In this document: piece after piece, positions 20,894-31,420 of the stretch | Layout of the letters: each line of letters opens with the position of its first letter | Numbering within the stretch: the first letter of the stretch is position 1 | From: an uncultured Prevotellaceae bacterium | GTDB lineage: Bacteria > Bacteroidota > Bacteroidia > Bacteroidales > Bacteroidaceae | Length of the DNA stretch: 64,000 nucleotides | Direction of reading: 5' to 3' | Assembly (NCBI GenBank): GCA_900316645.1 | Contig: ONDP01000009.1 | Coordinates: 33,578-97,577, forward strand | The notes under the pieces: generated by a model | Seen by the model: the letters and a program-made list of their open reading frames with translations, nothing else | Told to the model about the DNA's origin: nothing | Database searches by the model: none | Program-made: the position numbers and the translations under genes

Positions 20894-22867
20894 ATGACAG
20901 TGAGAATGTTCATGAAAATGCTGTGTATTGCATTTCTCATTTCTCATTTCTCTTTTCTCATTTCGAGCTGCGCCCGTATGGGTCAGCCTGACGGAGGATG
21001 GTATGACGACGACCCTCCACGCATTATCGGTTCCACACCGGCAGACGGAGCTACTGAGGTGACAGCGAAGAAAATAACCATCCAGTTTGATGAATACATC
21101 AAGTTGGCTGATGCCTCTCAGAAGGTCATCGTGTCGCCGCCTCAGTTGGAGATGCCGGAAATCAAGGAATCAGGTAAGAAGATTGTGGTGGAGCTGAAAG
21201 ACTCGCTCAAGCCCAATATGACTTACACCATAGACTTCAGCGATGCTATCAGCGACAACAACGAGGGCAATCCCTTGGGCAACTACACCTTTACCTTCTC
21301 AACGGGTGAGCAGATTGACACTTTTGAGGTAGCGGGTAATGTGCTGGATGCCTCCAATCTTGAACCTGTCAAGGGAATCTTGGTGGGTCTTTATGACGAC
21401 CTCAGCGATTCGGCTTTTAAGACCAAGCCCCTGTTGCGCGTTTCCAGAACCGACGGACGCGGACGCTTTGTCATCAAGGGTGTAGCACCAGGTGAATATC
21501 GTGTCTATGCCCTGCAAGATGCTGACGGCGACTATGTGTTCAATCAGAAGAGTGAGATGATAGCCTTCTCGCATCAGACCTACAAGCCATCGAGTAAGCC
21601 CGACATCCGTCAGGACACGATATGGAAGGACACCCTGCATATCGACAATATCATACAGGTGCCCTATACCCATTTCTATCCTGACGACGTCACGTTGCTG
21701 GCCTTCCAGGAAGTGCAGACAAATCGCTATCTGCTCAAACAACCTGAGCGCACGGAGGCCAATCGCTTTACCCTCTATTTCAGCTACGGAAATCCCGAAC
21801 TGCCTGTTATCAAGGGCATGAACTTCAACGAGCATGATGCTTTCCTGCTGGAGGCTTCTCAGAAGAAAGATACGCTGACCTATTGGTTGAGCGACACCAC
21901 CCTTGTCAACCAGGACACGCTGCGAATGGAACTCAGTTATCTGATGACCGATTCGGCTGGTGTGCTGATAACGCAAGTGGATACTGTTGAAGTACTAGCG
22001 AAGACTAGTTACGAGAAGCGCCAGAAGGAGCGCAAGAAAGCTATTGAAGAATGGGAGAAGAAGCAGGAGAAGCTGAAGAAACGTGGCGATCCCTACGACA
22101 GCATTATGCCTCCCGAACCATTGAAGGTAAAGTACAATGTGAAACAGCAGATGGATCCCGACTATGTTTCCACCTTCGAAATGCCTGCTCCGTTGGCGCA
22201 TTGCGATACGTCAGCCATCCATCTCTATACGAAGATAGATTCGCTATGGTATAACACCCCGTTCGAGTTCCGACAACGTGATGCCTCGTTGCGCCTCTAT
22301 GAGTTTATTGCCGAATGGCGGCCCGATACGGAGTATAGTCTGGAAATTGACTCAGCTGCCTTTGTCGATATCTATGGTATAGCCTCAACACCATATAAGG
22401 TAGGCGTCAAGGTTCATTCGATGGACGATTATGCCACGCTGCTGATGCAATTGAGCGGTATCAGTGATACGACTGTTGTGGTGGAGTTGCTCGATAAGGG
22501 CGACAAGCCTATCAAGCAGGTGAGGGCAGAGGGCGGCAGTGCCGAATTCTTCTACATGGCTCCTGGCATCTATTATGTACGGGCCTTTGTCGATAAGAAT
22601 GGCAATGGTCGTTGGGATACGGGCATTTACGACGAGGACTTGCAGCCCGAGGATGTTTACTATTATCCCAAGAGCATTGAGTGCAAAGCCAAGTTCGACA
22701 TCACCTTACCTTGGAATCTGTTGGGCACGCCACGCATTCAGCAAAAGCCCGGTGCTATCACCAAGCAAAAGCCTGACAAGGAACAGAAGAAGCTTCGCAA
22801 TCGCAATGAGGAGCGAGCCAGGGAGTTAGGCATAGAGTATATCAAGAAAAGTTCAATGATCAAATAG
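20894..22867 (+). CDS. Ig-like (Big_5) outer-surface lipoprotein
   Basis: About 657 residues. The start at ATG 20894 gives a lipoprotein signal peptide ending in the lipobox LISSC; the frame is open further upstream to 20828, but that segment is itself repeat-derived. After the Cys come a Big_5 Ig-like domain (IIGSTPADGATEVTAKKITIQFDEYI..), a carboxypeptidase-regulatory-like strand domain (EVAGNVLDASNLEPVKGI) and a long strand-rich region ending in a basic tail (EERARELGIEYIKK). The hydrophobic core of the signal peptide, FLISHFSFLIS, is encoded by a 7-bp repeat tract. Function unknown; probably exported through Lgt/Lsp. Confidence 0.85.
   Translation: MTVRMFMKMLCIAFLISHFSFLISSCARMGQPDGGWYDDDPPRIIGSTPADGATEVTAKKITIQFDEYIKLADASQKVIVSPPQLEMPEIKESGKKIVVELKDSLKPNMTYTIDFSDAISDNNEGNPLGNYTFTFSTGEQIDTFEVAGNVLDASNLEPVKGILVGLYDDLSDSAFKTKPLLRVSRTDGRGRFVIKGVAPGEYRVYALQDADGDYVFNQKSEMIAFSHQTYKPSSKPDIRQDTIWKDTLHIDNIIQVPYTHFYPDDVTLLAFQEVQTNRYLLKQPERTEANRFTLYFSYGNPELPVIKGMNFNEHDAFLLEASQKKDTLTYWLSDTTLVNQDTLRMELSYLMTDSAGVLITQVDTVEVLAKTSYEKRQKERKKAIEEWEKKQEKLKKRGDPYDSIMPPEPLKVKYNVKQQMDPDYVSTFEMPAPLAHCDTSAIHLYTKIDSLWYNTPFEFRQRDASLRLYEFIAEWRPDTEYSLEIDSAAFVDIYGIASTPYKVGVKVHSMDDYATLLMQLSGISDTTVVVELLDKGDKPIKQVRAEGGSAEFFYMAPGIYYVRAFVDKNGNGRWDTGIYDEDLQPEDVYYYPKSIECKAKFDITLPWNLLGTPRIQQKPGAITKQKPDKEQKKLRNRNEERARELGIEYIKKSSMIK
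20931..20965 (+). repeat. 7-bp tandem repeat, unit CATTTCT, encoding a signal-peptide core
   Basis: CATTTCT CATTTCT CATTTCT CTTTTCT CATTTCG, five units, lie inside the lipoprotein gene and encode its hydrophobic region. Complementary GAGAAATGAG-type units occur about 80-110 bp upstream. Confidence 0.9.
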
Positions 22868-24731: not shown

Positions 24732-24773
24732 CGTGCAGTCTTTTCCACAAAGTCAGGACTCTATAAATAGAGA
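24732..24773 (+). promoter_or_regulatory. Two-box element CGTGCAGTC-N15-GGACTCTATAAATAGAGA, copy 1
   Basis: This element recurs at 26513 upstream of the next gene with identical 15-base spacing and a single difference in the second box. The second box contains the palindrome CTCTAT-aa-ATAGAG. It ends about 5 bases before the sigma-barrel ATG. The two-box layout fits a dedicated ECF promoter or an operator; this is inference. Confidence 0.6.
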
Positions 24774-24777
24774 TGTT

Positions 24778-26511
24778 ATGCTTACGATGGAGATAACAAG
24801 ACTGATAGAACGATGCAGAGAGGGGGATGCAGATGCCCTTGGCGAACTGTATAAGGCATACGCCCAGCAGATGAGGGGCGTATGTCGGCGTTATATCAGC
24901 GACGAGCAAATGGTGGAAGATGTGTTGCACGATGCATTTGTAATTATCTTCACTTCGTTTGACAGGTTGCGTGATGAGCAAAAGGCTGAGGCTTGGATGA
25001 TGTCCATAACAAGGAATGTGGCTTCAAAATGCAAGGATCATCTGGATGCATTACCAACGGTTCCACTTGACAAGACGAACGATGCTACGTTCGCTGCTAC
25101 CGATAACGAGCAACAGGGGGTAAGAGGGGTTCCTCTGAGCGAGGTGATGAGAATGATTGACAGACTGCCTGAGGGCTACGGACAGGTGTTTCGCCTGTCT
25201 GTATTTGAAGGTCTGTCGCACAATGAGATTGCCGACATGTTGGGCATTGAGCCGCATTCGTCATCATCACAATTGGCACGGGCGAAGAAAATGTTGCGCA
25301 AGATGATGCAGCAGTACTGGGTTGCCATGCTTTTACTGCTTCTCCTTCCCCTTACCTTCTTCTTGTTCAGGCAAGAAGAAACTGCGATCAAAGAAGAAGA
25401 GTCTATTGCGGAAAAGCAGAAGGGTGTGCAGAAAGAGTCGTCTAAGGAATCTCTGACAGAACAACCACAGGAAGCTGTCATTGTTCAACTGCCCGTGAAT
25501 CGGACAAGCATCATAGCTGCTGATACTCCTTCATCGGTAATCGCCCAAACTGTAGACTCAATCACGGTTGACTCCTTATCCAATTTAGTCGTTCAGGAGC
25601 CAGCAGCTAATGACACAATAGTAAATGATACTGCAAAGAGTATTCGTAGGATAGAGCTACCGCATTACGATATGTCCGAGTTTACCCCCGATAAGCCAAT
25701 CACTGAAGCGGATAATGAAAAGAAATGGTCATTGGAACTGGCATACGCAGGAAGGCTCAATGAACAGAACCGCTATAACCAACCGTTCATCTATAAGCCA
25801 TATAAAATAAATGGGGGTGATCTTGTTGCCGATGACCCTGGACCTGGTCCTATTTATCATACTCCAAGCAACATTGACAACTGGACGGATTACGCTGTTT
25901 ATCTGGCAAACCATCCTAATGTTGTGAGTGACAAGACCCGTAGTGTCATCATGCGCATTGCCCTGAATAATGCCAACCGTCCAGGTGAAGACAAGATTCT
26001 TCGCACGAGTCACCACCAGATGCCAGTCACATGGTCGTTGGCTTTGAAGTACCAACTGAATAATCGTTTCGGATTAGAGTCTGGTCTCAGTTATAGCCGG
26101 CTGGCCTCTGACTTTGAGATGGGAACAGACGGAAATACGATCTACGAGCATCAGACCATTCACTACCTTGGCATTCCCATAAAAGGTATATACAATATTT
26201 ATGGTAGAAAACGCTGGAGTCTTTACGGCAGTTTTGGCATGATAACCGAAATACCCATCCATTCAACCCTCCGTTCTGATTTCTATGTAAATGGACAGCA
26301 TGAAGCCAGCGACAAGAATCCACTCCATGCTCCTTGGCAACTCTCTACTACCTTCGGTCTAGGTCTGCAAATTCATCTGACACCCTATATCGGTTTCTTC
26401 TTAGAGCCAAGCCTGCAGTACTATATCCAGATGAAGAGTGACATCGAGACCTACCGCACTGAGCATCCATTTGGTTTCTCATTGCCACTTGGCATCAGAT
26501 TTACATGGTAG
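24778..26511 (+). CDS. ECF sigma factor fused via one TM segment to an outer-membrane-type beta-barrel
   Basis: About 577 residues in one uninterrupted frame. Residues ~10-75 are sigma region 2 (ALGELYKAYAQQMRGVCRRY, VLHDAFVIIFTSFDRL) and ~125-175 region 4 (LPEGYGQVFRLSVFEGLSHNEIADMLG), as in ECF sigma factors. A single membrane segment follows at ~181-198 (WVAMLLLLLLPLTFFLF), then a polar, low-complexity periplasmic-type linker (~200-310). From ~316 to the end there are alternating strands ending in FGFSLPLGIRFTW, like an OmpA/PorT-type barrel with a C-terminal aromatic. No anti-sigma gene is adjacent. One polypeptide could thus reach from RNA polymerase to the outer membrane. ATG 24787 is an alternative start. 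Confidence 0.85.
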   Translation: MLTMEITRLIERCREGDADALGELYKAYAQQMRGVCRRYISDEQMVEDVLHDAFVIIFTSFDRLRDEQKAEAWMMSITRNVASKCKDHLDALPTVPLDKTNDATFAATDNEQQGVRGVPLSEVMRMIDRLPEGYGQVFRLSVFEGLSHNEIADMLGIEPHSSSSQLARAKKMLRKMMQQYWVAMLLLLLLPLTFFLFRQEETAIKEEESIAEKQKGVQKESSKESLTEQPQEAVIVQLPVNRTSIIAADTPSSVIAQTVDSITVDSLSNLVVQEPAANDTIVNDTAKSIRRIELPHYDMSEFTPDKPITEADNEKKWSLELAYAGRLNEQNRYNQPFIYKPYKINGGDLVADDPGPGPIYHTPSNIDNWTDYAVYLANHPNVVSDKTRSVIMRIALNNANRPGEDKILRTSHHQMPVTWSLALKYQLNNRFGLESGLSYSRLASDFEMGTDGNTIYEHQTIHYLGIPIKGIYNIYGRKRWSLYGSFGMITEIPIHSTLRSDFYVNGQHEASDKNPLHAPWQLSTTFGLGLQIHLTPYIGFFLEPSLQYYIQMKSDIETYRTEHPFGFSLPLGIRFTW

Positions 26512-26512
26512 T

Positions 26513-26555
26513 CGTGCAGTCATTTCAGAGTTTAACGGACTCTATCAATAGAGAC
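26513..26555 (+). promoter_or_regulatory. Two-box element CGTGCAGTC-N15-GGACTCTATCAATAGAGA, copy 2
   Basis: It begins directly after the sigma-barrel stop codon and lies about 24 bases upstream of the lipoprotein ATG (26579). Both boxes and their spacing match copy 1. This would be expected if the lipoprotein gene is a target of the sigma factor encoded just upstream. Confidence 0.6.
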
Positions 26556-26578: not shown

Positions 26579-27127
26579 ATGAAACAAGAAAAAAACTTCG
26601 CATGGATGATGGTAATAGCCATGGCCTGCATGATGATGACTGCTTGCAGTCTTGACAGTTACGAACCAGAGGAGCCCGTCTTGATTATTGAACCTGTAGA
26701 AGAAGGGATGCTCGCAGCCTGCGGTATCAGCGAGTCAGGAACACGTTCTGTCAGTGACGAGCAACTGCTCTTTACTGAGAAAGACATAGAATGGTTTAAT
26801 GCCACCACGCGCGAAATCAAATTCCGCGACATGGATAAGCCGCCATACGAGATGCTGGAGCCTTTCCACGAAATTAAGTTCTATCTGGGCGATAATGTGC
26901 TATTCACGGTCAGCAGTTTCGTTGGTGATTGGGATAGCAGGACATACACTAATCTCATCCTGCATTATGATGTGATTACTGACCCAGACCAAGGTCATTA
27001 TTATCTGCACGACTGCTACCCGCTTTATCTTATTGATACTGACGAAGTGAAGGCTAATATCAAAAAGAATGAGGGACAATGGGAGTTATTCATTTACTAT
27101 TTGGAAAGCAAAGGAAAACTGAGGTAA
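26579..27127 (+). CDS. Lipoprotein downstream of the sigma-barrel gene
   Basis: A 182-residue protein of no family I recognise. It has a lipoprotein signal peptide (WMMVIAMACMMMTAC, lipobox TAC-S), then an acidic N-terminal segment (EPEEPVLIIEPVEEG), and a strand-rich rest with many aromatic residues (HYDVITDPDQGHYYLHDCYPLY). The acidic +2 to +12 region resembles surface-export signals of Bacteroidetes lipoproteins, so it may be surface-exposed. Because of the shared two-box element it is probably co-regulated with the sigma-barrel protein. Confidence 0.8.
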   Translation: MKQEKNFAWMMVIAMACMMMTACSLDSYEPEEPVLIIEPVEEGMLAACGISESGTRSVSDEQLLFTEKDIEWFNATTREIKFRDMDKPPYEMLEPFHEIKFYLGDNVLFTVSSFVGDWDSRTYTNLILHYDVITDPDQGHYYLHDCYPLYLIDTDEVKANIKKNEGQWELFIYYLESKGKLR

Positions 27128-27187: not shown

Positions 27188-27212
27188 GCGATTAATCATT
27201 ATACATAAAGCT

Positions 27213-27704
27213 ATGAAGAAATCTATTTTATTCTTTTCTTTTATCCTATTAACGCTTGCAATGACAAGTTGTAGTAACGATGACAATGCCTCCATCTCGT
27301 CTATCGATTTTGAGAAGATATTCCAGCAGGGCGGATGGCAGGAAAGCAAATGCTGCAAGATTGAAAGTTCTGGACAATGGATCGATCTTACAGGTCCTGG
27401 TATCGATGGCTGGAGACCACTGCGTTTTGCCTTCATGGATTGGAATTTGCTGAAGCTCTATCATGAATATGATTATCCTATTCACACTGAAGACGGCAAT
27501 TTCTCTTTCGAAGAATATGAATATTGCAATTATCAATTTAACGAGACAACACAGGAGTTGACACTCAATAATATTACATACCACGTAGAGTCTATTTCAC
27601 CAGAAAAACTGGTGATTAAAGGGAAAGGCTCTTATGATGATAATATGTATGTTAGGGAGTTTAAGCATGTATCACGGTTTATTCATGAGAAACAGAAACT
27701 ATAG
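27213..27704 (+). CDS. Small lipoprotein, unknown function
   Basis: About 163 residues from ATG 27213. The signal peptide MKKSILFFSFILLTLAMTSC ends in lipobox TSC-S, followed by NDDNAS. The mature part is strand-rich, with WQESKCCKIESSGQWIDLTGPG and repeated acidic/aromatic stretches (FSFEEYEYCNYQF), reminiscent of lipocalin-like Bacteroidetes lipoproteins, but I cannot assign a family. It ends 2 bp before the helicase ATG. Confidence 0.8.
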   Translation: MKKSILFFSFILLTLAMTSCSNDDNASISSIDFEKIFQQGGWQESKCCKIESSGQWIDLTGPGIDGWRPLRFAFMDWNLLKLYHEYDYPIHTEDGNFSFEEYEYCNYQFNETTQELTLNNITYHVESISPEKLVIKGKGSYDDNMYVREFKHVSRFIHEKQKL

Positions 27705-27706
27705 GC

Positions 27707-31420
<3,714 letters not shown>

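Follow-up and report, generated by a model that had tools for sequence, protein, structure and literature searches.

A Dma3-type single-chain fusion of an ECF sigma factor and an outer-membrane-type barrel in a Prevotellaceae bacterium, with a candidate promoter of its own

In FecIRA-like TonB-type signalling, an outer-membrane barrel signals to an ECF sigma factor by way of three proteins that include a TonB-dependent receptor; neither such a three-protein set nor such a receptor was seen in the chain described here. Split, envelope-spanning pairs of sigma and anti-sigma proteins are in print as Das1/Dma1 and Das2/Dma2 of B. thetaiotaomicron (PMC13088901) and as M0N98_03760-61 of P. vulgatus (PMC9308784). 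As set out in the relevant sections of those reports, they share with the present protein an ECF sigma factor, a membrane helix, a long tether and a C-terminal barrel, and differ from it in being separate genes and in the anti-sigma domain that Dma carries before the helix, whereas the fusion has none. The C-terminal extensions of IutY (ECF243) and of ECF48/52/53 likewise anchor a sigma factor in the membrane, but the sections consulted describe an anti-sigma part and name no outer-membrane barrel (PMC8999054).

The closest described protein is Dma3 of B. thetaiotaomicron (locus bt_2778-2779), a Dma-family protein in which, according to the passages devoted to it, the sigma factor is the N-terminal domain, no separate cognate sigma gene exists and very little is known of function (PMC13088901). 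BT2778, given as a sigma-70 family sigma factor, appears in the relevant part of another study as 2.3-fold up in iron limitation and 1.4-fold up in colitis (PMC10434189). The likeness to the protein studied here, drawn by description, lies in the N-terminal sigma domain, the Dma-type barrel chain and the lack of a separate sigma gene. A literature search for sigma-barrel fusions returned no report besides the Dma papers. The fusion architecture is already published as Dma3, and the statement of the sequence-only reading that no characterised example was known has to be amended: Dma3, functionally uncharacterised, is in print with its N-terminal sigma domain, as are the split pairs named above.

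Architecture and distribution of the fused gene

The window (the whole stretch of 64,000 nucleotides that was analysed) carries the fused gene and its parts as follows.

24778..26511, + strand: fused gene, 577 aa, ECF sigma factor, membrane helix, linker and barrel; stop codon included
24847..25023, + strand: sigma-70 region 2, aa 24-82; PF04542 (Sigma70_r2) above cut-off
25141..25296, + strand: sigma-70 region 4, aa 122-173; PF08281 (Sigma70_r4_2) above cut-off
25315..25368, + strand: predicted membrane helix, aa 180-197, containing a proline; from hydropathy and charge
25369..26004, + strand: variable polar linker and conserved pre-barrel segment; from the alignment of 22 fusions
26005..26508, + strand: predicted outer-membrane-type barrel, about aa 410-577, with a C-terminal Trp; from Pfam and homology

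The 577 open codons and the Pfam matches bear out the earlier reading of sigma regions 2 and 4, one hydrophobic helix, a polar linker and a barrel in a single frame, and the sequence ends in ...GIRFTW, with the terminal aromatic residue that had been claimed. The probable recognition helix of sigma region 4 is PHSSSSQL, the residues of which are kept across the 22 aligned fusions. The polar linker spans aa 200-315 (116 residues), and the pre-barrel segment contains a W-x-D-Y motif at aa 369-372 in the same alignment. The barrel is predicted from a match to OMP_b-brl_2 (PF13568) at aa 420-540 (34.5 bits; cut-off, 27), from homology to the barrels of split Dma-like proteins, which match over aa ~408-577, and from the C-terminal aromatic residue. 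Against NCBIfam, the sigma70-ECF superfamily alone was above cut-off among the best 25 of 98 matches, and the matches listed from NCBIfam and the PDB sequences were general ECF matches with no barrel match among them. No separate sigma gene was present in the neighbouring frames between window positions 22000 and 30000. The net charge of the 15 residues on either side of the helix is +5 before and -4 after, which by the positive-inside rule predicts a cytoplasmic N-terminus with the rest of the chain outside; each of the 32 diverse fusions and all 78 close relatives have a higher charge before the helix than after it.

Among the matches listed for 149 related genomes were more than 20 full-length homologues with the same part order, no internal stop and 30-75% identity, together with two further full-length homologues with one stop each; the tally of 149 out of 149 genomes includes ECF matches of every kind and is not one of fusions. 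In named genomes, 451 stretches were confirmed by a scan and the best 80 loci were kept, from Prevotella, Alloprevotella, Prevotellaceae, Bacteroidaceae and Bacteroidales, many of them rumen or gut MAGs. The frame is open over the match in 78 of these 80 loci, and L110 and L111, which carry one stop each, were excluded from alignment A2, consisting of the window protein (P0001) and 73 of the 78 open loci (without L035, L037, L060, L063 and L067; L063 and L067 are truncated by a contig edge). A profile of the 22 fusions matched at E<=1e-60 in at least 75 of 301 sampled same-family genomes and at least 16 of 30 genera, the matches listed covering mostly the whole profile and in some cases partial or short frames. 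In the order-level sample, at least 9 of 295 genomes matched at E<=1e-48, and besides the window's genome only G779, from another family, held fusion-length frames, of 532 and 525 aa, one of which also had a match listed for the barrel half; the remaining matches were single halves or short frames. At most four candidates were scored per genome in the profile searches, and the counts are lower bounds; related sequences are not independent observations, and counts of the form k of n are descriptive throughout.

Relation of fused and split forms

In many relatives the two halves are neighbouring genes. Ten such split pairs were fetched, with sigma factors of 163-206 residues and partners of 383-455 residues, the two genes in most cases sharing a few bases, and in 10/10 the partner consists of a cytosolic segment of ~40-60 residues, a membrane helix and a C-terminal barrel, in that order; many of the cytosolic segments show a pattern like W..I...MADY..P.P..LW..IE. 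In the window protein the membrane helix adjoins sigma region 4 with no anti-sigma segment in between, and in all 32 diverse fusions only 1-11 residues separate the conserved AK of sigma region 4 from the hydrophobic window, indicating that the cytosolic anti-sigma segment is missing from the fusions. An anti-sigma domain of the IutY type behind the sigma was also looked for in the fusions and was not encountered. Simple loss of the stop codon between Das and Dma genes was rejected as the whole origin of the fusion, because the anti-sigma segment is absent too.

Trees were calculated from 20 P0001-like rows, nine 'fusB' rows, three 'fusBact' rows and ten split pairs, taken from more available, the split pairs by eye, with two outgroup sigmas added to the sigma tree; the L164 sigma, for which the frame offers no ATG start, was begun at an internal position, and the L158 frame, called from a late ATG, lacks some N-terminal sequence (462 aa). 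One branch of the barrel tree, with support of 100/98, divides the 32 fused rows from the 10 split rows. In the sigma tree, which is disturbed by two very long outgroup rows, the 10 split rows form one side of a branch (83/100) and grouping of the 32 fused rows was not rejected (p-AU 0.41). The two trees together fit a single origin of the fusion, in a lineage apart from the split pairs.

An assembly error or frameshift uniting two genes, as the neighbouring split halves in related genomes might suggest, was ruled out by the homologues: the search across Bacteroidales that the earlier reading had proposed as a check found the same fusion in many independent assemblies, open in 78 of 80 loci. 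With fused and split proteins also on opposite sides of a strongly supported branch of the barrel tree, we give such an artefact a negligible probability.

A proline lies within the membrane helix in 27/32 diverse fusions and 75/78 close relatives, as against 1/10 split partners, although the count varies with how the helix is cut (25/32 fusions and 0/10 split by another rule). It is absent from three close Bacteroides-like rows, and the Bacteroides-like fusions lacking it include L152-L154 and L157. The recognition helix is PHSSSSQL or close to it in 28/32 fusions, varying in L156, L159, L160 and L020; split sigmas have SASQ at the probable recognition helix in the 8/10 found by pattern. A second Prevotella fusion group (L155, L156, L159 and L160; 507-549 aa) adjoins a C13-peptidase-like gene, and several of its members also lie beside a serpin gene (L160 by Pfam, the others by eye).

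A promoter-like element that follows the sigma

Two copies of a promoter-like element flank the fused gene, the second of them followed by a partner gene.

24734..24764, + strand: promoter-like element, copy 1, before the fused gene; TGCAGTC at 24734-24740, a 15-base spacer, GGAC at 24756-24759, then CTATAAATAGAGA
26515..26545, + strand: promoter-like element, copy 2, 3 bases past the stop codon of the fused gene and before the lipoprotein gene
26579..27127, + strand: partner gene, 182-aa lipoprotein-like protein

Over the loci compared, the non-coding element before fused genes has the consensus TGCAGTCTTTT-...-GGACT.tAtA.ATAGAGA; the halves of a promoter of this kind are named -35 and -10, and the spacing of the element is like that of other ECF promoters. 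Of 79 loci (the window and 78 others), 62 have the exact short form, TGCAGTC-N13..16-GGAC, <=70 bases ahead of the fused gene, with a spacer of 14-15 bases at the sites in this position; a contig edge truncates two of the 17 loci without it. The first 300 bases past the fused gene hold 68 exact sites in 66/79 loci, and of 19 sites further downstream 15 precede a radical-SAM frame and one a lipoprotein frame, while at three no frame was found. A shuffled window is expected to contain 0.14 short-form sites, as against the two observed, and one of 100 shuffles reached two. When the whole genome of the window was searched with the 31-base pattern at <=2 mismatches, exactly the sites at 24734 and 26515 were returned, both with 0 mismatches, and the reversed-pattern control gave none; a wider regulon was looked for by the same search and none was found (genome 86.55% complete). 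A stricter promoter pattern, with TTTT after TGCAGTC, matches only one of the two sites.

Twenty other genomes were scanned, ten with a P0001-like fusion and ten without (some of which hold other fusions). In the former, a single 1-mismatch site in G080 lay away from the fused locus, and every other site with 0 or 1 mismatch lay at it, the sole such site of G058 being 1.5 kb past the fused gene; in the latter, 0-mismatch sites were absent and a 1-mismatch site occurred once (G003). Little can be drawn from two-mismatch sites, since they are scattered in both sets, with 64 matches in all as compared with 17 for the reversed pattern (43 against 10 and 21 against 7).

The partner lipoprotein family matched no Pfam or NCBIfam name. 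A member lies near the fused gene in 57/79 loci, as the first gene downstream in 54, and a radical-SAM/SPASM protein and a Gfo/Idh/MocA-type oxidoreductase lie near it in 39/79 and 36/79 loci, respectively, at least 1 kb of downstream sequence being available in 72 of the 79. The window locus has the lipoprotein partner only, with no radical-SAM or oxidoreductase partner beside the fused gene; elsewhere in its genome, the search for a radical-SAM partner gave just a remote match of 25% identity. A second small lipoprotein-like gene follows the partner at 27207-27704, present in L035 and absent from L034, and no element was found before it. The next frame (27707-31420) is helicase-like and has 1237 aa, as against 1094 and 1096 aa in L034 and L035; by eye, its extra part looks like a DUF559-type endonuclease segment inserted between repeat-like TPDPSPSER / SPSLKERAGGE words.

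Other fusion clades share the TGCAGTC first half of the element but have a different second half, reading CTCC in L022, L023, L024, L028 and L030 and GTATC, TATCAT or similar in others. The form TGCAGTC[AT]TT was found <=150 bases upstream of 10/13 diverse P0001-like fusions (12/13 in a looser form) and of 5/8 fusions from genome groups g62, g67 and g72 (6/8), as against 1.4-2.4% of background windows of the same loci, a background that overstates chance because its windows contain the element itself. Over the same distance it was found before 0/4 Prevotella 'fusB' genes and 0/10 split sigma genes. The fusB genes closely follow other genes, and by eye similar elements stand before the upstream C13-peptidase-like gene in L155, L156 and L160. 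At five split-type loci (L165-L168 and L170), inspection by eye showed TGCAAG (four) or TGCAGTATT (one) at the gene before the sigma; the TGCAGTATT element precedes a serpin-like gene in L165. This TGCAAG / TGCAGTATT element is likely the promoter of the split-type sigmas. The split loci fetched lie beside NigD-type or serpin genes, the gene adjoining the L166 pair having been tested as a NigD1/NigD2-family lipoprotein and other loci looking alike by eye.

The g62 fusions have 503-554 aa, a second half of the TATCAT or CGTACC type and, in most of those looked at, a methyltransferase gene next (four of six fetched, L152-L154 and L162, with a Pfam test on that of L152), whereas the window fusion has 577 aa, GGAC and a lipoprotein partner. 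A g62 fusion with its methyltransferase-like gene would fit the two-gene dma3 locus. A scan of 15 genomes with the g62 form of the element, TGCAGTCTTT-N13-ATCAT, gave 9 matches without mismatch, each of them at a fused locus, and none in G490, G156 and G288, which hold a related fusion, or in six control genomes.

Two natural exchanges, affecting 4/105 rows compared, part the sigma from the barrel. In L113 and L015 a P0001-like sigma (83 and 78% identity) is joined to a distant barrel (44 and 47%) and the GGAC elements are kept; in L016 and L017 a distant sigma (45%) is joined to a P0001-like barrel (67 and 60%) and the loci carry GTATC, with a methyltransferase-like frame downstream of the fusion in L017. 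Read from the sequences, it is the sigma and not the barrel that the element and the partner genes accompany through these swaps. We infer that the element is the promoter of the sigma, the swaps being the best evidence for this; since the second half follows the sigma, the latter probably drives a small local regulon that includes its own gene.

Proposed mechanism and rival readings

We consider it moderately probable that the protein is a Dma3-type one-chain trans-envelope regulator with a sigma factor that drives its own gene, is held by the tether and is released by proteolysis, the inferred steps ranking, in order of support, as own promoter, tether hold and release. The sigma would recognise TGCAGTC-N15-GGAC and switch on both the gene that encodes it and the lipoprotein gene next to it; its targets would also include the radical-SAM/oxidoreductase pair in relatives and the methyltransferase in other clades. 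In the resting state its link to the barrel would keep it at the inner membrane, in place of an anti-sigma factor; as there is no anti-sigma domain, the tether itself would have to hold the sigma back, unless another partner does so. Release would follow an alteration at the outer membrane, be it a ligand, damage or faulty assembly of the barrel. Its route would most likely be proteolysis that ends in the membrane helix with its proline, and the sigma, once free, would increase the synthesis of itself and of its partners. For a split relative, the portion of the report used here describes induction by an envelope-damaging toxin, with the sigma gene up 33-fold (PMC9308784). The proline in the helix fits release by intramembrane proteolysis, for which the cleavage of IutY by Prc and RseP, as related in the pertinent section of that study, is a precedent (PMC8999054). 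The window's genome has one site-2-protease-type gene (PF02163), which lends weak support because such genes are present in 14/14 control genomes.

According to the earlier reading, a covalent fusion requires that the sigma domain be released or else that it work in transcription while tethered, and this choice stands with the single chain confirmed. Membrane-bound regulators such as ToxR and CadC provide the model for the second course, in which RNA polymerase would be recruited to the inner membrane and access to an uncut sigma would depend on the state of the barrel or linker. The lack of an anti-sigma segment to restrain a soluble sigma speaks for this, as does the apparent limitation of targets to the sigma's own locus, where sites with 0-1 mismatch almost exclusively lie, which might suit action near the site of synthesis; the Bacteroides-like fusions without a helix proline (L152-L154, L157) also count in its favour. 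Yet region 4 ends a few residues from the helix, so that the -35-binding part would be held at the membrane, the helix proline is frequent, and IutY, in the section of the report that concerns it, needs proteolysis (PMC8999054). We regard tethered action as rather unlikely, and release is favoured over it.

Two further readings concern the element and the chain. The element, conserved also in the bases past GGAC (TATAAnTAGAGA), could be the site of another regulator or a post-transcriptional element common to the genes of the locus, which we hold to be distinctly improbable given its two-part form with a 14-15-base spacer before the fused gene, the constancy of TGCAGTC where the probable sigma-4 recognition helix is constant, the different helix and TGCAAG at four of five places in split-type loci (by eye), and above all a second half that tracks the sigma in the natural swaps. 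Little credence is given to the existence of two proteins in the cell, arising by a cut after export or from a barrel with an inner start, with sigma and barrel acting apart: no conserved second start or signal-peptide cleavage motif was read by eye in the alignment, and the part order is kept in one frame in 78/80 loci. Release of the sigma from the intact chain is retained as the preferred reading.

To the description of Dma3, the present comparison would add the missing anti-sigma segment, the two-part element, a code that follows the sigma and the helix proline. A bolder proposal, which we advance tentatively and think somewhat doubtful, is that a sigma without an anti-sigma makes the chain anchored in both membranes the switch, with an exchangeable barrel as sensor and a self-amplifying regulon of a single locus. 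If true, each copy of the fusion, one protein with promoters of its own, would form an insulated circuit, and in the boldest form transcription would start from a membrane-tethered sigma without release. Several proteins are normally needed to relay a signal through two membranes to a sigma factor, and here one chain would suffice; its form without an anti-sigma domain, together with the predicted promoters, makes it testable whether the sigma must leave the membrane. The promoter code, with a constant first half and a second half dependent on the sigma clade, may offer a way to read the regulons of this class from sequence, that of Dma3 included.
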